A stretch of DNA of 64,000 nucleotides from Terriglobia bacterium. Lineage in GTDB: Bacteria; Acidobacteriota; Terriglobia; Terriglobales; Acidobacteriaceae. The position numbers and the translations under genes are program-made. The notes under the pieces are model-generated. The model ran no database searches. It saw only the letters and a list, made by a program, of their open reading frames with translations, and was not told the DNA's origin. The stretch is taken from the NCBI GenBank assembly GCA_020072815.1, contig JAIQGE010000003.1:124001-188000 (forward strand), written 5' to 3'. Position 1 is the first letter of the stretch, and every line of letters begins with the position of its first letter. This document shows, piece by piece, positions 6,646-60,952 of this stretch.

Positions 6646-6778
6646 GGTAGTGGGTCAGTTTGATAGACGTTCATCGCTGGCGCGATGAACGTCTGCCTGA
6701 AGGCCCGCGATTCGCACGCGAATCGCTAGATGCTGATACCGGCGAGTGGGTCAGTTTTCATTAAACTGACCCACTGCC
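6646..6778 (+). repeat. Structured repeat element, copy A (133 bp)
   Basis: The ends form an imperfect 19-bp inverted repeat (GGTAGTGGGTCAGTTTGAT at 6646 and its complement at 6760-6778). Inside are two strong hairpins: 12 bp with a TGGC loop (6666-6693) and 9 bp with a 2-nt loop (6707-6726). Near the 3' end a second direct copy of the end sequence (6745-6757) faces the terminal inverted copy (6763-6775), giving a perfect 13-bp hairpin. The terminal copy can therefore pair with either upstream copy. A second element with the same design is at 48101-48265. It ends 41 bp before the start codon at 6820. Confidence 0.85.
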
Positions 6779-6819
6779 GAATGCTATCCTCTGGTTCAGG
6801 GCGAAGAACTAGCTTGTCT

Positions 6820-8463
6820 ATGGCCGATTCCAAACAATTCAAGACTGACGTCGTCATCGCCGGCGGCGGATTGGCCGGGATTGTCACCGCCTATGAACTC
6901 CTTGATTCCGGCCACCGCGTCCTGCTGATTGACAAAGACAAGCGGGAAAACTTTGGCGGGCTGGCCAAGCAGTCGTTCGGCGGCGTGCACATGATTGATA
7001 CGCCCCACCAGCGCCGTCTGGGCATCAAGGATTCGCCGGAACTGGCGTGGCGCGACTGGCAGAGCGTTGCCGGCTATGAGGCCAACGACGATTGGCCTCG
7101 CCAGTGGGCCAGGCTTTACTGCGAAAATTCGGGCGAATACATTTTTGAGTTCCTCAATCGCCACCAGATCAAGTTTCTGCCCGTGGTCAACTGGGCGGAG
7201 CGCGGAATTTACGGTCCAGGCAATACCGTCCCGCGCTGGCATATCGTGTGGGGCACTGGACATGAAATCATCCACTGCCTGCTGAACGCGCTGGACGCCC
7301 ACCCGAAACGCGCCAATCTTGAATTGCTGTTCGATACAGAAGTTTCCGCGATTGAGATGAGCAATGGCCGGGCTACGGGCGTCCGTGGCCGGACCATTAA
7401 TTCTAGGGATCCTGTCGATTCCGGCCAGGAGGTTCGCGTCTCTGCCGAACACACGGTGATTGCTTCGGGCGGAATCTGCGGTGGCGATCTCAGCACCCTG
7501 CGTGCCAACTGGTACAAGCCGTGGGGCGCGCCGCCGACGAAGCTGCTCAACGGCGCGCATGATTACGGTGACGGCATGCTGCACAATCGAGTTGCCGCGC
7601 TGGGCGGGGCCATAACCCACCTTGACCTGCACTGGCACTACGCCGCGGGCATACACCACCCTGCCAAGCGCCGGCCTGACGACGGCCTCAGCCTGGTGCC
7701 ACCGCGTTCCGCCCTGTGGCTCAACGCCCGCGGAGAACGCATCATGACTCCAGGCCCCATGCCGGTGTACGGCGACACCCGCCATCTGGTGGAGAGCGTG
7801 CTTCGCCAGCCCGGCCAATATTCGTGGCAGGTGATGAACTGGAAAATCGCCATCCGTGAGCTGGCGGTTTCCGGCTGCGATTACATGACCGCGTTTCGCT
7901 ACAAAGACCGGCGCGCGCTGCTCAAGAGCGTCATGTTCGGCAATAAAGAACTCGTTGAGCGGCTGATTCGCGAATGCCCGGACGACATTGTGGTCGCTGA
8001 CACGTTGCCTGAGTTGATGGAGCGCATGGATGCGGCGAACCTTTTCGGCCAGCGGCTCGACCGCGCTCAGATGGAAGCTACCATCAAAGCGTGGGATGAC
8101 ATGATTGGGCGCGGTCCCAAGTTTCACAATGACGACCAGCTGCGGCGCATCGCGAATTTCCGCAACTACCGCGGCGACCGCGTGCGCACATCCAACTTCC
8201 AGCGCATTCTTGATCCCAAAGCTGGTCCGCTGATCGCCATCCGCGAGTTCATCCTGGCGCGCAAGAGCCTGGGCGGAATCCAGACGGACATGCAGTGCCG
8301 CGTGCTGCGCGTCGACGGCCAGCCGATTCCCGGCCTCTACGCTGTGGGCGAAGCCGCAGGATTCGGCGGCGGCGGCATCCACGGCAAAGGCTCGCTCGAA
8401 GGCACGTTCCTGGGCGGTTGTATACTCACGGGTCGCGTCGCCGGCAGAAGCATCGGGAAGTAA
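6820..8463 (+). CDS. FAD-binding dehydrogenase (succinate dehydrogenase/KstD-like fold)
   Basis: 547 residues from ATG 6820; the longer frame upstream runs through the repeat element and was rejected. The N-terminus holds the dinucleotide-binding motif IAGGGLAGIVTAYELL with the acidic residue of LLIDKD, followed by GGLAKQSFGGVHM, and the C-terminus ends with the FAD-contacting LYAVGEAAGFGGGG and GSLEGTFLGGC segments. This layout is that of the FAD-dependent dehydrogenases related to fumarate reductase and 3-ketosteroid dehydrogenase; substrate unknown. It probably forms an operon with the ThDP enzyme whose start lies 13 bp downstream. Confidence 0.85.
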   Translation: MADSKQFKTDVVIAGGGLAGIVTAYELLDSGHRVLLIDKDKRENFGGLAKQSFGGVHMIDTPHQRRLGIKDSPELAWRDWQSVAGYEANDDWPRQWARLYCENSGEYIFEFLNRHQIKFLPVVNWAERGIYGPGNTVPRWHIVWGTGHEIIHCLLNALDAHPKRANLELLFDTEVSAIEMSNGRATGVRGRTINSRDPVDSGQEVRVSAEHTVIASGGICGGDLSTLRANWYKPWGAPPTKLLNGAHDYGDGMLHNRVAALGGAITHLDLHWHYAAGIHHPAKRRPDDGLSLVPPRSALWLNARGERIMTPGPMPVYGDTRHLVESVLRQPGQYSWQVMNWKIAIRELAVSGCDYMTAFRYKDRRALLKSVMFGNKELVERLIRECPDDIVVADTLPELMERMDAANLFGQRLDRAQMEATIKAWDDMIGRGPKFHNDDQLRRIANFRNYRGDRVRTSNFQRILDPKAGPLIAIREFILARKSLGGIQTDMQCRVLRVDGQPIPGLYAVGEAAGFGGGGIHGKGSLEGTFLGGCILTGRVAGRSIGK

Positions 8464-8476
8464 GAAGGTGGAGAAT

Positions 8477-10261
8477 ATGGCCAGCGGAACTCAAACAGAA
8501 GCAGCACAACGCATTCGCATCGGCGGCAGCAAAACCGGCGCGTGGCTTGCCCGCTACGCGCTGGAGCAACTGCCGGTCTCGCACACCTTCGGCATTCCCG
8601 GCGTCCACACCACGGAGCTGTACGACGAGCTGAACCAGTCGGAGAAGATCCGGCCCGTCCTGGTTACGCACGAGTGTTGCGGCGCGTTTGCCGCCGACGC
8701 CATCAGCCGGACGTCCAACGGACAGATCGGCTGCCTGGTAATTGTGCCTGCGGCCGGCGTTACCCACGCCATGAGCGGCATTGGCGAATGCTACCTGGAC
8801 GGCATTCCTCTGCTAGTGATCACCGGCGGAGCGCGCACGGACGTTCCTTTCGGCTACCAGTTGCATGAAATTGACCAGCAGCGCCTTGTGGACGGCATCG
8901 TTAAGCGTTCCTGGAAGATCACTGAACATCGCGATATTGTGCCGGTGATCTTTGAGGCTTACCGCACCACGGTGAGCGGCGTGCCAGGGCCGGTGCTGGT
9001 GGAAATTCCCGTCAACTTGCAATTGTTTTCGCAAGCGGTGGACGACGTGCCCGCGTTCACTCCCTACGCGCCGGAGCCAGTATTCGTTGATAACGAGCTG
9101 GACGCCGCGGTTCGTCTGCTTCGCGAAGCCCGCTCGCCAGGAATCTTCGTCGGCTGGGGAGCGGTTGACGTCGCCGAATCCGTGGCCAAAATCGCTGAGT
9201 TGCTGGGCGCGCCGGTTTCCACCACGCTGCAAGGCCTCTCCGCTTTTCCCGGCGACCATCCGCTGCACACCGGCATGGGATTCAGCCGGGCCGCGGTGCC
9301 CGCCGCGGAAAATGCCTTTGCCAAATGTGACTGCATGCTGGCCATCGGCGTCAGCTTTGGCGAGATTCCTACCGGCAGCTTCGGGTGTCCAGTGCCGGAG
9401 AACCTTATCCACATTGATATCTCGTCCAAAGCTATTGGGCGCAACTATCCGGCCAAGGTCGGCTTACTGGGCGATTCGCGTCTCATCGTCCCACAGCTTC
9501 TTGCGCGGCTTCAGTCCGGCGCTGCCGACCAAACCGCGCGCCGCCGCAACGTGGAAGCCCGCATCGCCGCCGACAAAGCCGCTTATCGCGAAGAATGGCG
9601 GGCACACCAAACCGACCGCGTCAATCCCGCGCCGTTTTTCCAGGAACTACGGCGCCAGCTCAACGACGACGCCATCATGACCGTGGACGACGGCAACCAC
9701 ACCTTCCTCGCCGCTGAGCTGTTTGAAGTGCGGCGTCCGCGCGTCTTCGTTTCACCCACCGACTTCAACGCCATGGGATACGCCGTGCCGGCAGCCGTCG
9801 GCGCCAAGCTGGCCAGCCCTGATCGGCAAGTCGTCAGCATCGTGGGCGATGGCGCGTTCCTGATGACCGGCCTGGAGACCATCACCGCGGCCACGCTCGG
9901 CCTGGGCATTGCGTACTTCGTTTTCGACGACGGCGAGCTCAGCCAGATTTCCCAGGGCCAGGAAATTCCCTACAACCGCAAACCGTGCACCGTTCTTGGT
10001 ACGCTGCGGCTGAAGGGCATCGCCGACGCCACCGGCGCAGACTACGTGGCCATCGAGAACAATGGCCAGATCAGCGATGCGGTTCGCGACGCCCTGGCCT
10101 GCGCCGCAAAGAACAAGCCGGTCATCGTGGACGTTCACGTGGACTACTCCAAGCGCACGCGCTTTACCAAGGGCGTGGTCAAGACCGCGCTGAAGCGTTT
10201 TCCGCTGCGTGACCGTCTGCGGTTCATCGCCAGGGCGCTGGTGAGAAAAGTGACGGGATGA
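8477..10261 (+). CDS. Thiamine diphosphate-dependent enzyme (acetolactate synthase/decarboxylase-like)
   Basis: 594 residues from ATG 8477; AAGGTGGAG lies just upstream, and an in-frame GTG at 8468 is the alternative. The three domains of the POX/ALS family are present: an N-terminal PYR domain with the cofactor-activating Glu in THECCGAFAADAISR, a middle domain, and a C-terminal PP domain with the Mg/ThDP motif GDGAFLMTGLETITAA ending in FDDGEL, where most family members have NN. Likely reactions are decarboxylation or carboligation of a 2-keto acid. Pairing with an FAD dehydrogenase suggests a short pathway acting on one substrate, not identified here. Confidence 0.85.
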   Translation: MASGTQTEAAQRIRIGGSKTGAWLARYALEQLPVSHTFGIPGVHTTELYDELNQSEKIRPVLVTHECCGAFAADAISRTSNGQIGCLVIVPAAGVTHAMSGIGECYLDGIPLLVITGGARTDVPFGYQLHEIDQQRLVDGIVKRSWKITEHRDIVPVIFEAYRTTVSGVPGPVLVEIPVNLQLFSQAVDDVPAFTPYAPEPVFVDNELDAAVRLLREARSPGIFVGWGAVDVAESVAKIAELLGAPVSTTLQGLSAFPGDHPLHTGMGFSRAAVPAAENAFAKCDCMLAIGVSFGEIPTGSFGCPVPENLIHIDISSKAIGRNYPAKVGLLGDSRLIVPQLLARLQSGAADQTARRRNVEARIAADKAAYREEWRAHQTDRVNPAPFFQELRRQLNDDAIMTVDDGNHTFLAAELFEVRRPRVFVSPTDFNAMGYAVPAAVGAKLASPDRQVVSIVGDGAFLMTGLETITAATLGLGIAYFVFDDGELSQISQGQEIPYNRKPCTVLGTLRLKGIADATGADYVAIENNGQISDAVRDALACAAKNKPVIVDVHVDYSKRTRFTKGVVKTALKRFPLRDRLRFIARALVRKVTG

Positions 10262-10270
10262 ACGAGACCA

Positions 10271-10285
10271 CGCGCCGAAGGCGCG
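10271..10285 (+). terminator. Short GC hairpin after the ThDP gene, possible terminator
   Basis: A 6-bp perfect stem CGCGCC/GGCGCG with a GAA loop lies 10 bp after the stop codon, followed by a moderately T-rich stretch. The same core hairpin occurs in the intergenic repeat at 57878-57890, so it may be a repeat remnant rather than a dedicated terminator. Confidence 0.4.
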
Positions 10286-10440: not shown

Positions 10441-10464
10441 CGACAAAGACGATAAATATTGTCG
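10441..10464 (+). promoter_or_regulatory. Candidate operator before the Rrf2 regulator gene
   Basis: The inverted pair CGACAA ... TTGTCG, with a 12-bp A/T-rich spacer containing GATAAATATT, ends 14 bp before the GTG start of the Rrf2-type gene. Rrf2 regulators usually bind A/T-rich dyads overlapping their own promoter, so this is a plausible autoregulatory site for the whole downstream operon. The match is to position and symmetry only. Confidence 0.3.
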
Positions 10465-10478
10465 GAATTAGACGGGCC

Positions 10479-10988
10479 GTGATTAACAAGACCTCCGTAC
10501 TCGCTATGCGAGCTTTGCTGGTAGTCGCCGGGGACGCGCCGGGCAACGTCCTGTCCCCGCGCAGCATTGCCGCCCGCTTGAATGAATCGCCCGCTTATAT
10601 GGCCAAGGTGCTTCGCCTTCTGGTCAGGGCGGGAATTTTACGGGCGGAGCGCGGGACCAAAGGCGGCGTTTTTCTCAACCGGCCAACTTCAGAAATCTCC
10701 ATGCTTGAAATTGTTCAAGCTTGCCAGGGCGCGATCGTCGGCGGCTATTGCCAGCCAGTCCTCAACCTCCAGAGCACTTGCGCTTTTCACCGCGCGACGC
10801 TGGAACTGGAGCACGCCGTCACTCAAGTTCTCTCGCGCTGGAATTTGGCGCATCTGGAAAAAACGCCCGGACCAGTTGGCAGGCTGCCCGGAACGATGCA
10901 CTGCTTGATCGCCGGTTTTCCTGCGCCGTTGTCACCGAAAACGCGCTCAACGAAAGCCGGCTTAGCGAGAGGAACCGCGAGACCATGA
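10479..10988 (+). CDS. Rrf2-family transcriptional regulator
   Basis: 169 residues from GTG 10479. The winged helix is clear (LAMRALLVVAG, SIAARLNESPAYMAKVL, LVRAGILRAERGTKGGVF). Cysteines at about residues 82, 91 and 101 fall in the region that carries the Fe-S ligands of IscR and NsrR, but the spacing differs and a bound cluster is uncertain. The gene opens the operon and its TGA overlaps the ATG of the next gene (ATGA), so translation is coupled. By position it probably controls the molybdoenzyme operon in response to redox, NO or Fe-S status; this is inference. Confidence 0.85.
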   Translation: MINKTSVLAMRALLVVAGDAPGNVLSPRSIAARLNESPAYMAKVLRLLVRAGILRAERGTKGGVFLNRPTSEISMLEIVQACQGAIVGGYCQPVLNLQSTCAFHRATLELEHAVTQVLSRWNLAHLEKTPGPVGRLPGTMHCLIAGFPAPLSPKTRSTKAGLARGTARP

Positions 10989-12946
10989 CGGATCTCCTGA
11001 AGCTGCGCGTTTCCATTCCTTCCGAGCAGTACCAGCAGGATCAGATTTCCTGCCAGGTGGCGTGTCCGGTGCACACCGACGCGCGCGGTTACGTGCGGGC
11101 CATTGCACAAGGCCGCTTTGAAGAAGCCTACCTGATCGCCCGAGGTCCCAATCCTTTTGCCTCCATCTGCGGACGAATCTGCGGTGCGCCCTGTGAGACG
11201 GCCTGTCGTCGCGGCAAGATTCCGCGCGTAGATGATGACGGCAACTTCGTCGCCAACGACCGTCCTATCGCCATTCGCGCGCTGAAACGTTTTGCCTGCG
11301 ATCTTTACGGCCCTGAGGCACAAGGCCCCGGCGTCACGCTGCGTAATGTAAAAGCGTTCATTCCTCCAGTGGCCGCCCACGCGGACGAAATGGCCGCGTT
11401 GCTGCGCGCCTCTGTGGATGGCCGGGTGAAGCAAGCGGGTGGAGAAAAGATCGCCATTATCGGCGCCGGTCCTGCGGGGCTTTCCGCAGCGCACGATCTG
11501 GCCCTGCTCGGTTTCAAACCCGTGGTGTTTGAGTCTGAGCCGGTCCCCGCCGGCATGCTGGCGGTGGGCGTGCCTGCGTATCGCCTGCCGCGCGACATTA
11601 TCGCCAAAGAAGTTGCGGTGATCCAGGCACTGGGCGTTGAGATTCGTTGCGGCGTTTCCATCGGCAAGGACGTGAGCTTCGCCGAGTTGCGCCGGGATTT
11701 CAGCGCCGTGTTGATCGCCGTGGGCGCAAAGTCCTCTCGCGACCTGGGACTGCCCGGCGAACGCGGGCCGCGCGTCTACGGCGGCGTGGATTTGCTGCGA
11801 GCCGTTTCCTTGGGCGAACCCATTGATATCGGCCGTGAAGTGGTGGTGGTTGGCGGCGGCAACGTGGCTTATGACGTGGCCCGCACCGTGGTCCGGCAAA
11901 TTGCCTATGACACGGCCCGCACCGCGGCCCGTCTGCCTGGCATGAGCAAAGTCTGGCTGGTCTCACTGGAGAGCCTGGAAGAAATGCCCGCGGACACCGT
12001 GGAGATCCGCGAAGGTGATGAAGAAGGTGTGCAGCGGCTGAACGGCTGGGGGCCGCTGGAAATCCAGCGCCGCGATGATGGCTCCGTTTCCGGCGTGCTC
12101 TTCCGCAAGTGCACCCGCGTGTATGACGAGAATCGCCGCTTCGCCCCAACGTATGACGACACCATGACCCGCCCGGTGCCGTGTGACACCGTGCTGCTCG
12201 CCGTCGGACAGAGCACGGCCCTCAAATTCCTGGAAGACGGCGGCAAGGACGTTGAGATGATGCGTCCCGGCTGGCCCAAGGTGGACGCGCAAACACTGCG
12301 CACCACGGCCGACAACGTGTTCGTCGCAGGCGACCTGGCGCACGGTACGCGGCTGTTGATTGATGCCGTGGCTTCCGGCAAAGCCGCGGCGCGTTCCATT
12401 TACGAGTCGCTTACCGGCAACAAGTTGCAGTTTGAGGCCGTGGCCTCCCATCGCGTGCTTGAACTCTATCGCCGTGAACGCGGCTACGAAAACATTCGCC
12501 GCCAAGCGATTCCCACCACGGAGCCGGAAGACCGGCTGAAGCACCCGGCGGTCTGTGTGGAGAGCGGCTACACGCAGGAACTGGCCATGCGCGAAGCTTC
12601 GCGCTGCCTGGATTGCGGCGTGGCGCCCATCTTTGACGGCACGCGCTGCGTGCTCTGCGGCGGCTGTGCCGACGTTTGTCCCACGCAGTGCCTGAAGCTG
12701 GTGAGCCTGGGCGACCTGTTCGGCGACGACGCGTTTGCCCGGGAGATCGGCGTCGCGCTCGGCGAAGACGCTGATCTCGCCGCCAACTCAGCCATTTTGA
12801 AAGATGAAGACCGCTGTATCCGCTGCGGGCTCTGCGCCCTGCGCTGCCCGGTGGATGCCATCACCATGGAACGCGTCATGTTCCGCACGGATTGGAGGAC
12901 CAATGAGCGAGACACAGAAGACCGGGCGCTCGCGGCTCGATCCTGA
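10985..12946 (+). CDS. GltD-like FAD/NAD(P) oxidoreductase with N- and C-terminal Fe-S domains
   Basis: 653 residues from ATG 10985, which overlaps the previous stop. The N-terminal Cys-rich domain ([15 protein letters not shown], then [16 protein letters not shown]) is the Fer4_20 type of glutamate synthase small subunits. It is followed by an FAD site ([20 protein letters not shown]) and an NAD(P) site ([18 protein letters not shown]). A ferredoxin domain at the C-terminus supplies two 4Fe-4S motifs ([12 protein letters not shown] and [12 protein letters not shown]). There is no glutamate synthase large subunit nearby. In this operon it may pass electrons between NAD(P)H and the quinone or ferredoxin pool; the partner is inferred only from context. 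Confidence 0.85.
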
Positions 12947-13388
12947 GCCGGTGAGCCGTCGCGATGTGTTGGGACTCATGTCCCTGTGGGCTGCAGGGTC
13001 GGCCCTGCTGTTCGGGCTCGTTGGGATGTTGCGCCTGCCCAAGGCCGCTGTCCTGTCGTCTCCATCCAAACGTTTTCGCGTGACGCTGCCGGCGACCTTG
13101 GCGGCGGGCGAAGCCTTCACTCCTCCGGGCCGCAACGTGGCCGTGTATCGCGACGAACAAGGCGTGTACGCAATCTCCCGCGTGTGCACGCATCTGGGTT
13201 GCATCGTCAAGCCAACGGAAGAAGGTTTTGAGTGCCCCTGCCACGGCTCGCGTTATGACCATGACGGCACCGTGACCAAGGGTCCGGCGCCGCGCGCGCT
13301 GCCCTGGCTGGAAGTGAAAGAACAGGCCGGCACGCTCTACGTGGATGAGGGCAGCAACGTGGCTTCCGGCACGAGGTTGAAGGTATGA
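12903..13388 (+). CDS. Rieske 2Fe-2S protein with Tat-type membrane anchor
   Basis: 161 residues; the ATG at 12903 lies 44 bp inside the end of the preceding gene. [20 protein letters not shown] is a twin-arginine signal followed by one membrane segment, as in Rieske subunits of bc complexes. The cluster ligands are present in CTHLGC and CPCHGS. It carries electrons from quinol at cytochrome b to a cytochrome c on the outer face of the membrane. The 4-bp overlap with the cytochrome b gene supports a shared complex. Confidence 0.95.
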
Positions 13389-14932
13389 GCGCCCCGGACC
13401 GCAATTCCGCTCTGCAGGTCTTCTGGCAGAACCTGAAGGCGACGCCGCGGCACTTCATGGAAACGGCGTTTCGCGGTGGCGCTCCCAAGACCGACCGCAC
13501 GCGTTCCACGTTTGTCTTTGGCAACGTGTTCTTCCATCTTCATTCCGTGCGCACGCATCGCTGGAGTTTGCGTTGGGCAACGACTTGGGGACTGGGAATG
13601 GCGACGTTTGCGGCCTTTGTCATCACGCTGGTCACCGGCATCCTGCTGATGTTTTATTACAAGCCTTTCCCTGACGTTGCCTATCAATCCATCAAGGACA
13701 TTCATTTCGTGGTCCCCACCGGCCGCTTCATGCGCAACATCCATCGCTGGGCGGGAAACGTGATGGTAGTGACGGTGATCCTGCACATGGCGCGCGCGTT
13801 CTATACCGCGGCCTACCGCAAGCCGCGCGAGTTCAACTGGCTCATGGGAATGGCGCTGCTGGTGGTCACGCTCGGCCTTTCTTTCACCGGCTACTTGCTG
13901 CCCTGGGACCAGTTAGCGTACTGGGCTATTACCATTGGCGCCAACATTGCAGCGTCACCCCAGGAGGTAACAAATGCGCTGGGGATCACGCAGCATTTTG
14001 ATCCCGGGGGATTGCAGCGGCTCATTCTACTGGGATCGGACACCGTTGGCCCGGAAGCGCTGATCCGCTTCTACCTGCTGCACGTGATGATCCTGCCGCT
14101 GGTGCTGGCGTTGATCGTCGCCGTTCATTTCTGGCGTATCCGCAAAGATGGCGGGTTGGCCAGGCCTGTTGACGCTGACCAGCGCGTGGGGCCCATCACC
14201 GGAACCTATCCGGTGTTCACCGAGCAGCCCAAGAAGACGTATCAGTTGGCGGCCATCGTGCGCGGGAAGACTGCGGCAGTGGGTAAAGGGCCGGAAGCCA
14301 CCGTGCCTTCCATGCCGCATCTTTTTTACGGCGAACTTGCCGTCTTGATGTTGACCACGCTGATCTGCGTGGCGCTGGCACTGCTTTCCGACGCGCCGCT
14401 GAAAGAGCTGGCCAATCCCATGGTGCCGGAGAACCCGGCCAAAGCGCCCTGGTATTTCCTGGGACTGCAGGAGTTAGTTTCCTTCTCGGCGTTCATGGGC
14501 GGGATCGGAATTCCCACCATCGTGCTGCTTGGCCTGGGATTGATCCCGTATCTCGACCGCGAAACCGAAGGCACCGGCGAATGGTTCGGCGGGCCGGGAG
14601 GCAAGAAGCTCGCCATGCGGTCGCTGCTGGTCGGCTTTGGCGCGTCGCTGGCGATTGAATCGTTCGTCATCCACTTTGGCTGGCTGCGGGAGTGGTTCCC
14701 GCACATTCCGCAACTGGTCATCACTGCCATCAACCCTGGCACGCTCCTCACGCTGGCTTACGGCGCGTACTCGGTGTGGTGTGTGAAGAAATACAGCTCA
14801 ACCCGCGCAGGCGCCATGGCTCTTTTCACGTGCTTCCTGTGCGGCTTCATCGTTCTCACCGTCATCGGGACGTATTTCCGCGGACCGAACTGGGTCTTTT
14901 ACTGGTCGCCGTCCCAATGGCCCGGACACTAA
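13385..14932 (+). CDS. Cytochrome b of a bc-type complex, fused b6/subunit IV form
   Basis: 515 residues. The N-terminal part has the two heme-b His pairs (IHRWAGNV and [17 protein letters not shown] and [10 protein letters not shown]) and the [12 protein letters not shown] segment of the quinol site. The C-terminal part resembles subunit IV, with [14 protein letters not shown] where the canonical PEWY would be, a variant seen in menaquinone-using bacteria. About ten membrane segments. It oxidises or reduces quinone and works with the Rieske protein upstream and the seven-heme cytochrome downstream. The resemblance to Rieske/cytochrome b pairs linked to outward-facing nitrate reductases is notable. 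Confidence 0.93.
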
Positions 14933-14935
14933 TTT

Positions 14936-16591
14936 ATGAGTAAGAACAAATATCTGTTGCTCATTTCAAGCCTTGGCGTGCTGACGCTGCTGGTTGGCGC
15001 GGCGGTGCAGGAAAACTTTCTGCGCGAGTGGCGTCAGATTCAGACGCAGGGCCGCAACGAGGAAGGGCCCATCGCCGTGCAGCTTCGGCAGGTCGTGAAC
15101 ACGGGGCTCAAGACCAACGACCGCTGCGTCTCCTGCCACGTGACCATGGCGCCGGGCGAATCGACGACGACCGGAGCAAAAGTCCTGTCACCCCACAAGC
15201 CTGTTGTGCACGATCCTTCCGAGTGGGGCTGCACGGTCTGTCACGCCGGACAAGGCCAGGCCACCGACAAAGCCGACGCTCACGGCGATGTCCCCTTCTG
15301 GCCGGACCCCATGATTGAGCCGCGCTTCAGCCAGGCCGGTTGCGGCACATGCCATGCGCCGCTCGGCGTGCCCGAGCAAGAGCGCTACGCGGAAGCTCGC
15401 AATGCCTTTGCCCGCCTGGATTGCTTTGCCTGCCACAAGGTGGACGGGCGCGGCGGCATGATTCGTCCCGACGGCGGCGGTATGGAAGGCCCCGAGCTTT
15501 CTCGAGCCGGCATCAACGGCTATGACGCCGGCTGGTATGAAAAGCACGTTGCCAAACATCAGCAGGCCCAGCAGGGACCGTGGCGCAACTCGTTCGCGTC
15601 TGTGAACGATGCCGATCGCGAGTTACTCAAAGACTATCTGGCCACGCTGATGGCCGCTCCCAAGCTGGTGGAAGCCAAGGCGGTGTTCAACTCCACCGGC
15701 TGCATGGGCTGCCACAAAGTCAGCGGCGTGGGCGGTGACGAAGGCATTGATCTTTCACACGAAGGCGAAAAAGATCCCGGACAAATCAACTTTGCCCACA
15801 TGGCCGGCAAGCACAGCGTTGAAAACTGGATGGCCGAGCACTTCCGCTCGCCGGTGTCCGTCGTGGTCGGCTCGCAGATGCCGTCGCTTGCGCTTTCTGA
15901 TCGCGATGTTGACCTGCTCAGCATGTACATGCGGTCGCTGCGGCGCAAAGACCTTCCTGCAAGTTACGTCCCCAAAGACCGTGTACGCGCCGTGCGTTTT
16001 GGCGAACGCGAATTCGCCGCCGACGGCGCCACCCTCTTTGGCACATTCTGCACCGGTTGCCACGGCGGAGGCGGTGTGGGCCAGCGCTCACCGGGCATGC
16101 CTTCGTTCCCGGCCATCGCCAGCGCGGATTTTCTCTCGCGCGTTTCCGACGACTTCCTTACGGAAACCATCACCCGCGGGCGTCCCGGACGCCGCATGCC
16201 GGCCTGGGGCGAACTCACCGGCGGACTGAAGCCGGAAGAAATCAAGAAAGTAGTTGCCTATGTGCGCCAGCTCGGTCCGGCCTACCAGCCGGATGGCGAA
16301 CCTCCGCGTTGGATCAAAGCCGATGCCGAGCAAGGCAAGAAACTATTTGCCTCCATCTGTTCCGGTTGCCACGGCGCAAAGGGCCAGGGCAACGAAGGAC
16401 CGGCGCTGAACAACCAGGTGCTGCTGGCCACGGCCACGGACAGCTACTTCGTACAGACCATCGGACAGGGCCGCCGCGGAACGGACATGCTGGGGTTCCT
16501 GGAGCCGCATCCCGCGCGGCCCACGCTCAGCCCGGGGGAGATCGAAAACATTATTGCTTTTCTGCGCACGTGGGAGAGGGGGAAGAAATGA
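14936..16591 (+). CDS. Seven-heme cytochrome c
   Basis: 551 residues starting with one uncleaved or signal hydrophobic segment ([19 protein letters not shown]). Seven CXXCH motifs are visible: CVSCH near residue 64, CTVCH 99, CGTCH 136, CFACH 163, CMGCH 256, CTGCH 372 and CSGCH 475. The last two sit in ordinary class I cytochrome c domains with downstream Met candidates ([15 protein letters not shown]); the first four form a compact multiheme part. It lies 3 bp after cytochrome b and its stop overlaps the molybdoenzyme ATG, so it is the likely wire between the bc complex and the Mo enzyme. Confidence 0.92.
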
Positions 16592-19500
16592 AACGAGATC
16601 TTGGACGCCGCGAATTCCTGCAGATGCTCAGCGCCACCGGACTGACGGCGCTGGTCGGCTCCACGGCGGAGACCTGGGGACTGGACGCGATCAGCAATCC
16701 GCTGGCCAGCTATCCCGACCGCGGATGGGAACGGGCTTACCGTGATCTGTGGAAATATGACTCCAAGTACACCTTCCTCTGCGCTCCCAATGACACGCAT
16801 AACTGCATGATCAATGCCTACGTGCGCCAGGGCGTGATCACCCGACTGGGCCCCACCATGAAATACGGCGAAGCCACGGACCTCAACGGCAATAAGGCCA
16901 CGCATCGCTGGGACCCGCGCATCTGCCAAAAAGGCCTGGCCCTCACCCGGCGCTTTTACGGTGACCGCCGCGTCAACGGCTGCATGGTGCGCGAAGGTTT
17001 CAAGAAGTGGGTGGAGAAAGGCTTCCCGCGGCAGAGCAACGGTCTTCCTGAGCGCGAATATTTCAATCGCGCGCGCGACCAGTGGGTCCGCGTGACGCAC
17101 GATGACGGCGCCAGGATCGTGGCATCCGTGCTCAAGAACATTGCTGAGACTTACACCGGCGAAGAGGGCAAGCGGCGTCTGACTGAACAACATTATGACC
17201 CCGCCACAATTGAGGCCACCAAGGGCATAGGCACGCAGGTGCTGAAATTCCGCGGCGGCATGCCGTTGCTGGGCATCACGCGGGTCTTCGGCATGTATCG
17301 CATGGCCAACAGCATGGCGCTGCTGGATAGCCACATCCGCAAGGTCGGTCCGGACCAGGCCAAGGGCGCGCGCGGATTCGACAACTACTCATGGCACACC
17401 GATCTGCCTCCGGGCCATCCCATGGTCACCGGCCAGCAGACGGTGGAGTTCGACCTGAGCGCCGCCGAGCACTGCAAAACTTTGGTGGTCTGGGGCATGA
17501 ACTGGATCACCACCAAGATGCCGGACAGCCACTGGCTCACCGAAGCACGGCTCAAAGGCACGCGGGTAGTCGTGATCGCGTGCGAGTACTCGGCTACAGC
17601 GACCAAAGCTGATGACGTGGTCGTCGTTCGTCCGGGCACAACGCCCGCGCTGGCGCTTGGTTTCTGCAACGTGATCCTGCGCGAAAAACTCTTCGACGTT
17701 GAATACATGAAGCACTGGACGGATCTGCCCATGCTCGTCCGCATGGATACGCTGCAGAACCTGCGCGCCAAAGACGTTTTCCCCAATGACCAACTGGCGG
17801 ATTTGAAATCCACCAAGATCCTGAAGAAGGGTGACAAAGAGCCTCCCGCGTTGCAGCACGTGGAACAGATCGTCGGCGAAGAACTGCGGGCCGCCTGGGG
17901 CGACTACGTTTGGTGGGACCGTAAGACCAACGCTCCTAAAAAGCTGACGCGGGACATGGTGGGTAAGTTCTCCAACGTGGCCGATCCGCTGCTCGAAGGC
18001 TCAATCGAAGTCACGCTGGTTGACGGCAAGAAAGTCCGTTGCCGTCCGGCGTTCGATCTGATCCAGGAGTACGTGGCCCACTTTGACCCCAAGACCGTGG
18101 AAGAGATGACCTGGGCGCCGGCCGCGGCCATTGAGTCCGTGGCGCGGCACATTGCGAAAGAGCCGGGGACCACGCTATTTGCTATTGGCATGGGGCCCAA
18201 CCAGTTCTTCAACAGTGACAACAAAGACCGTGACACCATGCTGCTGGCCGCGCTCACCGGCAACGTGGGCAAGATCGGCGGCAACATCGGCTCGTACGCC
18301 GGCAACTACCGCACGGCGCTGTTCAACGGCTCGCCGCAGTACATCAACGAGAACCCGTTCGATATAGAACTGGACCCAAGCAAGCCGTCGCGGCCCAAGG
18401 CGTATTGGGTGGGCGAGTCAGCCCACTATTACAACCATGAAGACCATCCGTTGCGCGTCGGCAAGCGGCTGCTCACGGGAAAGTCCCATATGCCGTGCCC
18501 GACCAAGTCCCTTTGGTTCGCCAACGCCAATTCCATCCTGGGCAATGTGAAGTGGCACTTCAACACCGTGATCAATCAGTTGCCGAAGATGGAGATGATT
18601 GCCGTCAACGAGTGGTGGTGGACGGCCTCCTGCGAATGGGCGGATGTGGTTTTTGGCGTAGACAGTTGGGCCGAACTGAAGCATCCGGACATGACCGCTT
18701 CCGTCACCAACCCGTTCTTGCAGGTCTTTCCCCGCACGCCCATCAAACGCGTCTTCAACACTATCGGTGATATTGACGTGTATGCGCTGGTGGCCTCCAA
18801 GTTTGCCGAACTCACCGGCGACCAGCGCTTCAACGACATGTGGAAGTTCGTGCGCGAAGGCCGCACCGACGTCTACCTGCAGCGCATCCTGGACAACTCC
18901 ACCAACACCAAAGGCTACAAGTTCGCGGACATTGAAGCCAAAGCCAAGGAAGGCATCCCCGCAATCCTCAACAGCCGCACCACCCCCAAGGCTGTAGGCT
19001 ACGAACAGGTGGCCGATTCCAAACCCTGGTACACCAAGAGCGGGCGGCTGGAGTTCTACCGCGAAGAGCCGGAGTTCATTGAAGCCGGAGAAAATCTGCC
19101 GGTGCATCGCGAACCCATTGATTCCACTTTCTACGAACCCAACGTGATCATCGCGCCCAAGCATGAGGCGCTGCGGCCGGCCTCGCCGGAGAGCTACGGC
19201 GTCTCCCGCGACGATCTCACCTGCGAGGTCCGCTGCGGACGCAACGTGGTCCTGACCTGGGCGGAAGCCAAGCAGACGCAGCACCCGCGCATGAAAGAAG
19301 GCTACAAGTTTATCTTCCACACGCCCAAGTACCGCCACGGCGCGCACACCACGCCGGTGGACGTGGACATGATCGCGCTGCTGTTCGGTCCGTTCGGCGA
19401 TCTCTATCGCCACGACCGCCGCATGCCGTACGTCAACGAAGGCTACGTGGATATCAACCCCAGCGACGCCAAGGACCTGGAGATTGAAGACGGCGACTAC

Positions 19501-20034
19501 GTGTACATCGATCCCGACCCGGAAGACCGTCCCTTCCGCGGATGGCAGAAAGACAAGAAGAACATGGAGTTTGCGCGCCTGCTGTGCCGCGCCCGCTACT
19601 ATCCGGGGACGCCGCGCGGCGTCACGCGCATGTGGCACAACGTGTACACGGCCACGCCAGGCTCAGTGGAAGGCCACAAGACCCGCAAAGACGGACTGGC
19701 CAAGAACCCGCGCACCAACTATCAGGCCATGTTCCGCAGCGGCTCGCAACAATCAGCCACGCGCGGCTGGCTCAAGCCCACGTGGATGACCGATTCGCTC
19801 ACGCGCAAGAACATGTTCGGCCAGAGCATTGACAAAGGTTTTCTGCAAGACGTTCACTGCCCCACGGGCGCGCCGCGTGAAGCCGTGGTCAAAATCACCA
19901 AGGCTGAGCCGGGCGGCATTGAAGGTCAAGGTTTGTGGCGTCCGGCGGCGCTGGGCATCCGGCCGAGCTACGAGTCGGCGGAGATGCGCAAGTATCTGGC
20001 AGGCGAATTCTATCTGGGACGGAAGGAGAAATAG
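16588..20034 (+). CDS. Molybdopterin oxidoreductase alpha subunit, type II DMSO reductase family (NarG/NxrA-like)
   Basis: 1148 residues from ATG 16588 (the longer frame upstream lies in the cytochrome gene). [10 protein letters not shown] is a twin-arginine export signal, so the enzyme faces outward, unlike classical NarG. The segment [11 protein letters not shown], with Asp near residue 272, aligns with the region of the Mo-ligating Asp in type II enzymes. The FS0 motif is unusual: Cys65, Asp69, Cys73 and Cys113, with Asp where NarG has its second ligand. This resembles what I remember of nitrite oxidoreductase and archaeal-type nitrate reductases. Substrate is not determinable from sequence; nitrate/nitrite is likeliest, with selenate, chlorate or a hydrocarbon as other options. 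Confidence 0.88.
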
Positions 20035-20037
20035 GCC

Positions 20038-21165
20038 ATGGCACGCGTTTATAACTGGCAAATCGGCAGGGAGATGTCGTACTGGTATCCGGAGAGCCGT
20101 CCGAAGAAGCAGTTTGCGGCCGTCTTTGACACCAACAAATGCATTGCGTGCCAAACCTGCACGCTGGCTTGCAAGACCACGTGGACCTCCGGCAAAGGCC
20201 AGGAATACATGCTGTGGAACAACGTGGAGACCAAGCCCTACGGCAGCTATCCGCTGGCTTACGACGTGAAGTTGCTCAACATGATTGAAGCCGGCAAGTG
20301 GAGCGGCAAGTCCTATGAAGGACAAACCATCTTTGAGTCTGCGCCCGCAGGCGAGCGGGTGATGGGCTGGCGGCCAGAGCAAGTGGACTATTCCTATCCC
20401 AACACCGGCGAAGACGATTGTGCCGGACAGGTGGACCACGGCGCACTCATGCAGTTGCCGCACATGAATTGGTTCTTTTACCTGGCGCGCATCTGCAACC
20501 ACTGCACGTATCCGGCTTGTCTGGCGTCCTGTCCGCGCGGTTCGATTTACAAGCGGCAGGAAGACGGCATTGTGCTGGTGGACCAGGGACGTTGCCGCGG
20601 CTACCAGGAGTGCGTGCGCGGATGTCCTTATAAGAAAGTCTTCTTCAACCCCCTGACCGGCACGTCAGAAAAGTGCATTGCATGCTTCCCCAAGATTGAG
20701 CAGGGGCTGCAGCCGCAGTGCTTTGTCAACTGCATCGGCAAAATCCGCATGGCCGGCTTCATCAACCCCCCGGAGAGAGCCCGCGCCGACAACCCGATTG
20801 ACTACCTCGTCCACATAAAGAAGATAGCGTTGCCGCTCTTCCCGCAATACGGATTGGAGCCCAACGTCTATTACATCCCGCCGATCCATGTGCCTGCGTC
20901 GTTCAACCGGCAGCTGTTCGGCCCCGGCGCGGACGCCGCAGTGGAAGCGTACAAAAACGCCCGGAAAGACATGGACCTGGCCGGGCTGCTCTGCCTGTTC
21001 GGCTGCACCGAATCGCTCATGACGCGCTTCAAGCGGTCAGGCGACGTGATCGTGGGCGCCGACGACAGCGGCACGCAGCTTGTCCGCGTGCCTATCACCG
21101 AACCGGTGCACGTGCGGCCGTCATTTGATCCCGTGCAGAAGCTGGTGCGCATCAACTGCCCGTAA
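20038..21165 (+). CDS. Molybdoenzyme beta subunit, four Fe-S clusters (NarH/NxrB-like)
   Basis: 375 residues, starting 3 bp after the alpha gene. Four Cys groups are visible: [41 protein letters not shown] and [11 protein letters not shown] with [11 protein letters not shown]. In the third group a Tyr replaces the second Cys, as Trp does in NarH, which predicts one 3Fe-4S cluster and three 4Fe-4S clusters. There is no signal sequence; in this family the beta subunit is exported with the Tat-tagged alpha subunit. It links the heme-b gamma subunit to the Mo subunit. Confidence 0.93.
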
Positions 21166-21180
21166 AGAGGAGGACTTGAA

Positions 21181-22041
21181 ATGCGACAACTGAAACTCAT
21201 CGTCTTACCCGCGTTGCTGGTCCTGATATTTTCGGCCGGATGCAAGAAGGCGCCAGTGCAGGCGACGGAGGTGATTGCTGTCCCCGCAGCGCAATTGCCT
21301 TCAAGCCCAACCGACGCAGCCTGGGACGCAGCGCCCGAGTATCTGGCCAAGCTCATCGCGCAAGATCTTGTGGAACCACGCTTGGCGCAGGCTTCCACTC
21401 CTGAAGTGCGCGTGCAAGCCATGACCAACGGCACGGACATCGCTTTCCGCCTGCGCTGGGTTGACCCTGACCAGAACGATACCGCCAAGCCGGGCGCCTT
21501 CGTGGACGCTTGCGCGGTGCAGGTCCCATCCAAGCTGATGCCTAACCCGCCGGCGCCGCAGATGGGCGAATCCGGCGGCGGTGTGCAGATTGTTTACTGG
21601 CGCGCCGACTGGCAGGCGTGGGCCAACGGTCGCGAAGACAACATCAAGTCCATTTACCCCAACGCGGAGATCACGCACTACCCATTCCAGGCCGCGTCGC
21701 TGCCCAAAGATTCGCCGGAGCAGAAAGAGATGGCCAAGCGCTTCGCGCCGGCGGACGCATCCGGAAACCGTCGCCAGGGACCAAGGCAGTCTCCTGTGGA
21801 AAGCCTCTTGGCCGAAGGCCCGGGCACGTTGGCGCCGAATCCGGCAATCGCCGTAAAAGGAACCGGCGTCCGCACACAGGACGGCTGGGAGGTGATGCTG
21901 GTGCGTCCGTTGCCGGAGGGATTGGCGCCGAAGAAGAGGACGTCCGTGGCATTCGCCGTGTGGCAAGGATCGAACAAGGAAGCCGGCGCCCGCAAGATGC
22001 GCAGCGGATGGGCGCCACTGGCATTACAGGAGAAGAAATAA
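21181..22041 (+). CDS. Ethylbenzene-dehydrogenase-like heme b gamma subunit, lipoprotein
   Basis: 286 residues with a clear lipoprotein signal (LLVLIFSAGC), so it is anchored on the outer face of the membrane. The body is the beta-rich EB_dh heme-binding fold of gamma subunits of ethylbenzene dehydrogenase, selenate and chlorate reductases (segments AWDAAPEYLAKL, VQAMTNGTDIAFRLRW, WEVMLVRPLPEG). Heme axial ligands in this fold are Met and Lys and were not assigned here. Standing between the beta subunit and chaperone genes, it should be the electron entry or exit point facing the cytochrome c. Confidence 0.82.
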   Translation: MRQLKLIVLPALLVLIFSAGCKKAPVQATEVIAVPAAQLPSSPTDAAWDAAPEYLAKLIAQDLVEPRLAQASTPEVRVQAMTNGTDIAFRLRWVDPDQNDTAKPGAFVDACAVQVPSKLMPNPPAPQMGESGGGVQIVYWRADWQAWANGREDNIKSIYPNAEITHYPFQAASLPKDSPEQKEMAKRFAPADASGNRRQGPRQSPVESLLAEGPGTLAPNPAIAVKGTGVRTQDGWEVMLVRPLPEGLAPKKRTSVAFAVWQGSNKEAGARKMRSGWAPLALQEKK

Positions 22042-22697
22042 TGTCATCCACCACGACTCTGGACAAACGGGAATTGCAACTGGCGAAAGAAGCTGCCGAG
22101 TGGCGCTTGGCATCCATGTTATTTGAATGTCCCAGCGACGCGTGGCGGGCCCAAATTACTGCCCTGGCTACGGAAGTGGGCGATGCTGAGTTGAAATCAG
22201 CCACGCACGACGCGCTGGAAGAAGCCGAGGAAGGCCTCTTTCACTACATCTTCGGGCCCGGCGGTCCGGCGCCAGCGCGCGAAGCCAGTTATCACCAGAC
22301 GGTGGAGCTGGGTTACCTGATGTCAGAGATTCAAGCTTATTACAACGCGTTCGCGTATCAACCTTTGGCCGCGGAACCTCCCGACCATATCTCCGTGGAG
22401 ACCGGCTTCATTGCCTACCTGAAATTGAAGCAAGCTTATGCGCTGGCCTGCGGAGAAGCGGAACATGCGGCGATCGCGTCTGAAGCAGCGCAAAGCTTCA
22501 TTAAAGACCATTTGGCGATTCTGGCGAATCCCCTGGCGGGCCATCTGGCTAATTCCGGCATTACCTATTTGGAAAAAGCCAGCGCGTTTGTGGCCAGAAA
22601 AGCCGGACCGCTGCCTGTTGTCGCGCCAATTCTTCCCATCCTGCAGAACCAGCAAGAGGAAGAAGAATACTCCTGCGGGAGTTCCCCTTGCGAATAG
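22041..22697 (+). CDS. TorD/NarJ-family assembly chaperone
   Basis: 218 residues; ATG overlaps the preceding TAA (TAATG). All-helical protein with no signal or membrane segment. The central region PAREASYHQTVELGYLMSEI followed by DHISVETGFIAYLKLKQAYA carries the D-H-I-x-x-E-x-x-F pattern of TorD/NarJ/DmsD chaperones. These bind the Tat signal of the Mo subunit until the cofactor is inserted, which fits an exported alpha subunit. The C-terminus ends with two Cys (CGSSPC), of unknown meaning. Last gene of the operon. Confidence 0.9.
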   Translation: MSSTTTLDKRELQLAKEAAEWRLASMLFECPSDAWRAQITALATEVGDAELKSATHDALEEAEEGLFHYIFGPGGPAPAREASYHQTVELGYLMSEIQAYYNAFAYQPLAAEPPDHISVETGFIAYLKLKQAYALACGEAEHAAIASEAAQSFIKDHLAILANPLAGHLANSGITYLEKASAFVARKAGPLPVVAPILPILQNQQEEEEYSCGSSPCE

Positions 22698-22846: not shown

Positions 22847-22922
22847 TGGGGTGGGTAGTGGGGGTCGAACCCACGACATCCAGAGCCACAGTCTGGCGTT
22901 CTGCCACTGAACTATACCCACC
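22847..22922 (-). tRNA. tRNA-His (anticodon GTG), CCA encoded
   Basis: On the minus strand the cloverleaf is complete: acceptor GGTGGGTA pairs with TACCCACC including the extra G at position -1 typical of tRNA-His. The anticodon arm is CCAGACTGTGGCTCTGG with GTG in the loop, the T arm contains GGTTCGACC, and CCA follows directly at 22849-22847. It stands alone between the molybdoenzyme operon and fmdB. Confidence 0.97.
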
Positions 22923-60366: not shown

Positions 60367-60947
60367 AGGTCCTTTTCTGCGCTAGCTCCTGGTGACTGTG
60401 CTTTCGTGAATGCCGGGCGGTTCCTGATCTCTTCAATCTGTGCGGCGTGCCGCTCGGCGTGCTTGGCCATGATAATCAACAATTCATAGGCGCTTACTTC
60501 TCCGAAGAGCGAATGAGGGACCTCCGTGCGCCGGAGATCTTCGTTATTTTGCTCGGCGAAGAGGATGGCTCCGGCCCGAGAGGTTTCAAACAGTTTTCGC
60601 GCCGCGTGCAGTGTGGGGAAGCGCCCGCTGGGATGGGCCCTTTCCGGCGCCGCAACTTTGCTGCTGCGATTGGCCACGCGCTCCAGAAAAATTTGCTCGC
60701 GGTTGGGGGCATCGGCGGAACGCGGACGTCGCGGCCCTTTCAGCAGGCCGAGCATAAAGGTTTCCGTCACCGCGACGTGCTCGGCGCAATCCAGCACGGA
60801 CCAGCACCCAGACGAAGGACGGTGGAGGCAGCTTTCCTCCGACACATCGGCCAAGCTCAAGAGGAAACGCTCGCGGCTTTCACGCAGCAATGCTGCCAGC
60901 CTTTGGTTATCGGCTGCCAAGGAGACCGTGTTGGACAAAGTGGTCAT
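60354..60947 (-). CDS. DinB-fold (YfiT/DinB superfamily) protein inside the nuo operon
   Basis: 197 residues, helical. The metal-binding His pattern of the DinB four-helix superfamily is seen in SVLDCAEHVAVTETF and IIMAKHAERHAAQIEEI. This is not DNA polymerase IV; these proteins are probably thiol- or metal-dependent transferases or hydrolases. It sits between nuoF and nuoG, overlapping nuoG by 13 bp and 5 bp from nuoF, so it is translated with the complex I genes. Confidence 0.85.
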   Translation of the reverse strand: MTTLSNTVSLAADNQRLAALLRESRERFLLSLADVSEESCLHRPSSGCWSVLDCAEHVAVTETFMLGLLKGPRRPRSADAPNREQIFLERVANRSSKVAAPERAHPSGRFPTLHAARKLFETSRAGAILFAEQNNEDLRRTEVPHSLFGEVSAYELLIIMAKHAERHAAQIEEIRNRPAFTKAQSPGASAEKDLCQT

Positions 60948-60952
60948 GGTTC

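Follow-up and report, generated by a model that had tools for sequence, protein, structure and literature searches.

A conserved operon joins a nitrite oxidoreductase-type molybdoenzyme to homologues of the putative NAD(P)-linked Rieske/cytochrome b complexes of Kuenenia

The 64,000 nt stretch of DNA analysed here (Terriglobia bacterium, GCA_020072815.1, contig JAIQGE010000003.1, positions 124,001 to 188,000, forward strand; hereafter the window) contains a run of nine consecutive open genes, from 10479 to 22697 on the plus strand, in which a molybdenum (Mo) enzyme of the nitrite oxidoreductase/nitrate reductase (NXR/NAR) type is preceded by genes for a GltD-like protein, a Rieske protein, a cytochrome b and a multiheme cytochrome c (Table 1). 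The open reading frame (ORF) list and the family scans confirm the nine-gene operon of the preliminary description, with the same families in the same order, except that its range began at 10441 and has been corrected to the start of the first coding sequence. The earlier statement that most junctions overlap by 1–4 bp was slightly overstated. It holds for four of the eight (Rrf2/GltD, Rieske/cytochrome b and cytochrome c/alpha, 4 bp each; gamma/chaperone, 1 bp); the GltD and Rieske genes overlap by 44 bp if the inferred Rieske start holds, and the three remaining junctions are gaps of 3, 3 and 15 bp. The chaperone scores 28 bits against TIGR03482, for which the cut-off is 152.

Table 1. Genes of the operon, with positions in the window
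Feature	Position	Strand	Evidence
Rrf2-family regulator	10479..10988	+	Rrf2 PF02082, 82 bits
GltD-like FAD/Fe-S putative NAD(P) oxidoreductase, 653 aa	10985..12946	+	Pfam and NCBIfam
Rieske protein	12903..13388	+	Best PDB match 9rk4; start inferred, open frame from 12804
Cytochrome b, b6-like part fused to subunit IV, 515 aa	13385..14932	+	Family scan, Kuenenia comparison
Heptaheme cytochrome c, hydrophobic N-terminal stretch	14936..16591	+	Seven CxxCH
Mo catalytic alpha subunit, NXR/NAR type, RREFLQ twin-arginine translocation (Tat) motif	16588..20034	+	7b04_B match, ligands, tree
Fe-S beta subunit	20038..21165	+	7b04_A, 384 bits
Heme-b gamma subunit, lipobox in window protein	21181..22041	+	EB_dh PF09459
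TorD/NarJ-type assembly chaperone	22041..22697	+	Weak TIGR03482 match; same position in relatives

A scan of genome contigs gave the best 80 of at least 555 confirmed loci. Tiers were assigned by match rank and gene content: tier A consists of the window, L016–L018 and L023–L070, with alpha identities from about 61% upwards, and tier B of L071–L102 (57–61%). Two tier-A entries, L017 and L024, agree in length and gene positions and are probably a single contig.

Among proteins in the PDB, the alpha subunit matches NxrA of the anammox bacterium Kuenenia (7b04_B) over its whole length with 877 bits; the next matches are perchlorate reductase (159 bits), ethylbenzene dehydrogenase (125 bits) and NarG (111–117 bits). 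NxrB (7b04_A) ranks first for the beta subunit. The three subunits match the type II set TIGR03479, TIGR03478 and EB_dh, the two TIGR models below their cut-offs. In the Kuenenia NXR, Asp275 is a ligand of Mo and Asn70 lies opposite it, the iron–sulfur (Fe-S) cluster FS0 is bound by three Cys and Asp71, and the heme b of gamma is bound by Met155 and Lys305 (PMC8387239). A phmmer alignment places Asp272, Asn68 and Asp69 of the window alpha at Asp275, Asn70 and Asp71. Six alpha residues (C65, N68, D69, C73, C113 and D272) are invariant wherever a letter is aligned, which is the case in 49–51 of the 52 tier-A rows (the rest being gaps), in 32/32 tier-B rows and in 7/7 NXR-type rows. The Mo ligand D272, a trait of the type II dimethyl sulfoxide (DMSO) reductase family, is found in all 51 tier-A rows with a letter at this position (of 52), and D69, which gives the three-Cys/one-Asp FS0 of periplasmic NXRs, in 49 of 49. 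In the NarG proteins of E. coli and Haloferax, by contrast, position 65 is His and position 69 is Cys.

A Tat-like motif is present in 34 of 44 tier-A alphas, including that of the window, and the 15 motif Cys of beta (C35–C45, C153–C196 and C213–C232) are kept in 47/47 tier-A rows. In gamma, Met128 aligns to Kuenenia Met155 in 70/70 rows and Lys272 to Lys305 in 69/70. A lipobox pattern occurs in only 25 of 43 tier-A gammas, window included, so lipid anchoring is not to be assumed for all of them. The sequence supports the earlier assignment to an outward-facing, Rieske/cytochrome b-linked enzyme of the type II DMSO reductase family.

The GltD-like protein contains Fer4_20, Pyr_redox_2 and a C-terminal Fer4 pair by family scan, and its PDB relatives are, by chain name, molybdopterin oxidoreductase, formate dehydrogenase-O, NfnA, NfnI and the glutamate synthase small chain. 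Seventeen Cys are present in 36/36 tier-A rows; 15 of these are found in all five comparison rows, C62 in three and C569 in two. This pattern fits several Fe-S clusters, which would number four by the Kuenenia models. The best PDB match of the Rieske protein is Kuste4569 (9rk4), and Kustd1480 (9rk3) is also among the matches. Its cluster ligands and a second-shell Ser are present in 38/38 rows; the Ser is a potential-raising residue and was counted in favour of the explanation preferred below. In cytochrome b (33 rows, those under 75% aligned length, some of them split forms, having been left out), the four heme His are always present, as is His51, which corresponds to His43/His62 of the Kuenenia proteins, the proposed ligand of an extra heme. 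The multiheme cytochrome has seven CxxCH motifs in 34 of 40 homologues of at least 540 aa and eight or nine in the other six; a further four frames, below that length, lie outside this count.

The Rieske/cytochrome b complexes of Kuenenia contain a putative NAD(P) oxidoreductase, and their Rieske potentials have been measured as +303 and +335 mV (PMC12954380). An extra b heme at His43/His62 was predicted by AlphaFold3. Hauser et al. (2025) side with Kartal et al., who proposed that NAD(P)H is formed by quinol bifurcation, an electron exchange that remains a proposal in Kuenenia too; they state that an exergonic partner reaction for Kustd1480–1485 had not yet been put forward (PMC12954380). We took genome G201 as Kuenenia because its Rieske protein is identical to 9rk4 over 106/106 residues and the published numbers His43, His62, Met155 and Lys305 fit its ORFs; locus L148 is taken as Kustd1480–1485 from its gene content and His62.

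Against Kuste4569–4574 and Kustd1480–1485, the window GltD-like protein is 34–35% identical over 625–638 residues (E 1e-87 and 2e-97), the Rieske protein 32 and 41%, cytochrome b 48 and 45% and subunit IV 34 and 45%. The proposed extra-heme His is common to both, and the combination that marks the anammox NAD(P)-linked complexes (genes for a GltD-like subunit, a Rieske protein, cytochrome b and a multiheme cytochrome, clustered together) is present in the window. Both Kuenenia clusters include a multiheme cytochrome c, but these are only weakly similar to the window heptaheme. They differ further in that the window cytochrome b is fused and has no heme-cN Cys, whereas the Kuenenia subunit IV is separate, and in that the partner enzyme is octaheme there and NXR-type in the window operon. 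The new finding is thus that the GltD, Rieske and cytochrome b genes of the operon, here joined to an NXR-type enzyme, are homologous to those of the Kuenenia NAD(P)-linked complexes. The preliminary description knew of no counterpart for the GltD-like and heptaheme parts. This does not hold for the GltD–Rieske–cytochrome b module; for the operon itself, searches of the open full text of PMC brought up no description, subscription papers and preprints lying outside them.

The linkage between module and enzyme is conserved. We examined 49 tier-A loci (L016 and L023–L070), 36 of which have at least 5.5 kb ahead of alpha; the 13 with less than 5.5 kb were set aside. All four module genes (GltD, Rieske, cytochrome b and multiheme cytochrome) sit with alpha in 34 of the 36, and because of this the linkage is not due to chance. 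The same gene order, which the preliminary description proposed to look for in other Acidobacteriota, recurs across Acidobacteriota, Planctomycetota and Myxococcota. The exceptions are L051, with none of the four genes, and L065, with only a 29% GltD-family match on the opposite strand; L064 (4.4 kb upstream, among those set aside) also has none of the four. At the tier-B loci, alpha, beta and gamma were matched and there was no Rieske or cytochrome b match. Many of the flanking-gene clusters proved to be antisense frames of operon genes. Of the real recurrent flanking genes, which are no more than suggestive, the one for a Ric/ScdA protein occurs at 9 loci, that for a Crp-type regulator at 7, those for an alginate-export-type porin and for a second Rrf2 at 5 each, and that for MoaA at 4.

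The module also occurs apart from the enzyme. Contig C12 of the host genome carries a second GltD–Rieske–cytochrome b–subunit IV–octaheme cluster (L205, 5652–11760) that has no molybdoenzyme, and a similar cluster is found in genome G005 (L207). A bc-type complex in the host genome (L206) has no GltD match and, by eye, no His51. In five tier-A loci (L056, L060, L061, L067 and L068), GltD and cytochrome b look nearer to those of L205 than to the window type. Free trees of the two proteins are suggestive of two independent origins of the link between module and enzyme; we do not claim this because a single clade is not rejected by the approximately unbiased (AU) test (p 0.225 and 0.589).

The alpha phylogeny proposed in the preliminary description was run with 48 rows (quick IQ-TREE) and gives the operon enzyme a clade of its own, with the NXR-type proteins as sister group; support is by the Shimodaira–Hasegawa-like approximate likelihood ratio test (SH-aLRT) only, NXR is represented only by anammox and acidobacterial/planctomycete rows, and the tree is without Nitrotoga, Hydrogenobacter, SerA and DdhA sequences. 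Eighteen tier-A rows form one group (SH-aLRT 98), tiers A and B group together with a Natronococcus plasmid protein (SH-aLRT 100), and beside this group stand seven NXR-type rows including Kuenenia NxrA, which are themselves united (SH-aLRT 95). The alpha subunit lies outside the periplasmic NXR clade proper (Nitrospira/Nitrospina/anammox), in a sister position, and, within the sequences and literature searched, adjoins a partly characterised NXR/NAR clade rather than falling inside a characterised clade with a described operon. The haloarchaeal, chlorate-type and E. coli rows are outside on long branches, and for this reason we do not trust the branching order among them.

Tier A includes Acidobacteria, Planctomycetota, Myxococcota/Deltaproteobacteria, one Abditibacteriales metagenome-assembled genome (MAG) and two 'Acidimicrobiia' MAGs, and tier-B taxa include Thioploca, Thiomargarita, Parabeggiatoa, Thiosymbion, Bacteroidia, Omnitrophota and Pirellulaceae. 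Within the sampled Acidobacteriota, 50 of 396 genomes (the host included) match alpha at E<=1e-100: 28, again with the host, at 66% identity or more, 3 at 57–61% and 19 at 39–43%. Matches in near relatives number 7 of 100, namely four of the window type (the host, G004, G082 and G097) and three at 39–42%. NXR-type alpha and beta genes of about 40% identity occur in one same-genus and two same-class genomes (L019, 3881–11669; L020; L021), and the gamma ORFs of L019 and L021 (508–520 aa, two CxxCH) resemble the alternative NxrC of nitrite oxidisers. The Natronococcus occultus plasmid (L103, 9001–12473) has an alpha that is 47% identical, matched in two pieces with no listed gene beneath. The only matches in the phage collection were distant NarG/DmsA-like fragments.

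Several known systems share elements with the operon. Kuenenia NXR-ABC (7b04) has in common with it the full-length alpha match, the Mo Asp, the Asn, the FS0 ligands and the Met/Lys heme b, but its alpha is about 41% identical and in a separate clade, and its locus (L215) has no Rieske or cytochrome b match within 18 kb. The NXR/NAR sister clade (Nitrotoga NxrA, Hydrogenobacter NAR and Beggiatoa-type NAR; PMC6050957, PMC8387239) may correspond to the combined A and B group, which also adjoins the NXR-type rows and includes Thioploca and Thiomargarita; these two are in tier B, where the loci have no Rieske module. The haloarchaeal pNar (Haloferax larsenii plasmid, L106) clusters Rieske, cytochrome b, alpha, beta, an EB_dh protein and a TorD chaperone (PMC2483277). 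The earlier comparison with this system stands for the wiring but not for ancestry: its alpha is 25% identical over 67% of the length, has His65/Cys69 at FS0 and is outside in the tree, and we rejected it as the parent system for these reasons. No GltD-like or multiheme gene is annotated there. In Methanoperedens, a path from menaquinol through Rieske/cytochrome b and a multiheme cytochrome to an external nitrate reductase has been proposed (PMC4683180). As far as that description goes, the genes are not presented as one operon and no NAD(P) subunit is mentioned. Further precedent for single elements comes from Methanoperedens (PMC13079737), from Nitrospira, where an octaheme nitrite reductase adjoins Rieske/cytochrome b genes (PMC6606698), and from the Nitrospina NXR (PMC3578206); PMC8906906 offered nothing relevant to the operon.

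The preliminary description allowed for a reductase or for the reverse reaction, such as nitrite oxidation, and the sequence indeed does not fix the direction. The alpha subunit alone gives none because the Kuenenia NXR works in both directions (PMC8387239) and because NxrA of the nitrite oxidiser Nitrotoga is in the sister clade of NXR, alongside NarGs of nitrate reducers (PMC6050957). Context is more informative. The host genome has a single alpha-type gene at E<=1e-12. A second NarG or NapA was sought among its Pfam-Molybdopterin matches and not found: none of the five other proteins has NapA or NarG as its best match, the best NCBIfam models being formate dehydrogenase (three), DmsA/YnfE and NuoG, with three below model cut-offs. 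The host also has NrfA (429 bits, beside a tetraheme ORF). Of the 14 genomes tested that carry the operon alpha, 6 have NrfA at more than 400 bits. There was no RuBisCO match in the host or in 13 of 15 genomes tested, other routes of CO2 fixation being outside the search. In the tier-B locus L084 (10001–18058), nrfH and then nrfA lie directly behind the enzyme genes (NrfH 158 bits, above cut-off; NrfA 311 bits, below the cut-off of 595). Nitrate reduction is the likely function: it is favoured by the host NrfA, by the lack of another nitrate reductase among the proteins searched, by the lack of a RuBisCO match and by the genetic tie to a complex of the quinol-oxidising kind, and L084 favours it over nitrite oxidation.

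The explanation we prefer, at slightly better than even, is that the enzyme is a periplasmic nitrate reductase supplied by quinol, and that electrons also pass between its Rieske/cytochrome b complex and NAD(P). Quinol, probably menaquinol, would be oxidised at the Rieske/cytochrome b complex. One electron would cross a Rieske cluster of high potential and then the heptaheme cytochrome c, enter gamma at its Met/Lys heme b, and travel through the Fe-S clusters of beta and through FS0 to Mo in alpha, reducing nitrate to nitrite outside the cytoplasm. The other would pass through the low-potential b hemes to the Fe-S/FAD centres of the GltD-like subunit on the cytoplasmic side and on to NAD(P), the exergonic half paying for NAD(P)H as proposed for Kuenenia. 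In this host, nitrite would then probably be reduced to ammonium by NrfHA. With published potentials of +420 mV for nitrate (PMC8387239) and of -70 mV for menaquinone and -320 mV for NAD(P) (PMC12954380), the gain for one electron is about 490 mV against a cost of about 250 mV for the other, a wider margin than nitrite to NO would give. If the function is nitrate reduction, the chance that NAD(P)H is made by quinol bifurcation is about even, and the rest falls to NAD(P)H feeding electrons in or to ordinary Q cycling. The full picture of a physical supercomplex, in which nitrate reduction pulls one quinol electron and the other reaches NAD(P)+ via the extra cytochrome b heme and the Fe-S/FAD subunit, is less likely than not.

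A number of observations weigh against this explanation, in addition to the bidirectional Kuenenia NXR and the position of Nitrotoga NxrA. The heme-cN Cys position of cytochrome b, known as b6 Cys35, is Gly in 33/33 tier-A rows and Cys in 5/5 comparison rows (two from Kuenenia, two from the relative G233 and one from G337). The Rieske Tyr position has Tyr in only 5 of 38 rows and Phe in 33. His51 does not serve to mark NAD(P) coupling, since L210 and L209 carry it with no clear GltD gene nearby, and we dropped it for that purpose. In 8 of the 14 genomes with the operon alpha, including the closest, G004, there is no NrfA match or only a weak one, and the ammonium step is therefore not general. 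By tblastn, nrfHA is beside the enzyme only in L084 among 90 loci, and L084 has no Rieske module. Finally, nuoG and nuoF (58003–62278, minus strand) place complex I subunits in the same window, and it is unclear why a heterotroph with these genes would make NAD(P)H by this route.

A doubtful but serious alternative keeps the nitrate reductase and has NAD(P)H feeding cytochrome b through GltD, or an ordinary Q cycle in which GltD has a minor role. The absent heme-cN Cys, which makes the N side different from that of Kuenenia, is in its favour, and plain Rieske/cytochrome b coupling explains nitrate reduction in haloarchaea and Methanoperedens (PMC2483277, PMC4683180). Against it, GltD is kept in the operon in 34/36 loci, and in Kuenenia an input of NAD(P)H would waste energy according to Hauser et al. 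(PMC12954380). Improbable, though not negligible, is a nitrite oxidase with reverse electron transport, in which electrons would run from nitrite through alpha to the heptaheme cytochrome and the Rieske/cytochrome b and GltD proteins would push some uphill to quinone and NAD(P). The closest solved structure to alpha is a nitrite oxidoreductase, and the bidirectional NXRs and the nitrite oxidiser in the NXR sister clade fit this reading as well; the missing RuBisCO, the host NrfA, the nrfHA linkage in L084 and the tie to a quinol-oxidising complex type argue against it. It is very improbable that the substrate is a different oxyanion (chlorate, selenate or perchlorate, for example), diverse as type II enzymes are and although the substrate is called here from sequence alone. 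In a tree without SerA and DdhA, alpha groups with the NXR-type rows apart from the chlorate-type L105 (which adjoins a chlorite-dismutase-family gene); PcrA and EbdA are much weaker PDB matches than NxrA, and neither tree nor PDB ranking supports a chlorate or perchlorate reductase.

With regard to the surroundings of the operon, a promoter scan upstream found none, and one weak terminator-like site lies ahead of it at 10279. Genes for an FAD-binding dehydrogenase and a thiamine pyrophosphate (TPP)-dependent enzyme (6730–10261, plus strand) end 217 bp before the operon; the nearest relative, L016, has no match to this pair in the roughly 2 kb that it covers beyond Rrf2. Two tRNA genes were called by ARAGORN, a probably false tRNA-Ile within the GltD gene (12328–12415, plus strand) and a tRNA-His just past the operon end (22847–22921, minus strand).

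Production of NAD(P)H by the anammox Rieske/cytochrome b complexes is still only proposed, and in several phyla the operon ties the same module to an enzyme type of high potential. Some of the groups that carry it have cultured members, and tests of this long-debated energy-saving mechanism could become possible outside anammox bacteria. Additionally, the presence of an NXR-type alpha in 50 of 396 genomes of the phylum makes it unsafe to name MAGs as nitrite oxidisers from an nxrA-like gene. If true, a bifurcating nitrate reductase would give such complexes the exergonic half-reaction that they have so far lacked, and would extend the class from anammox bacteria to Acidobacteriota, other Planctomycetota and Myxococcota.

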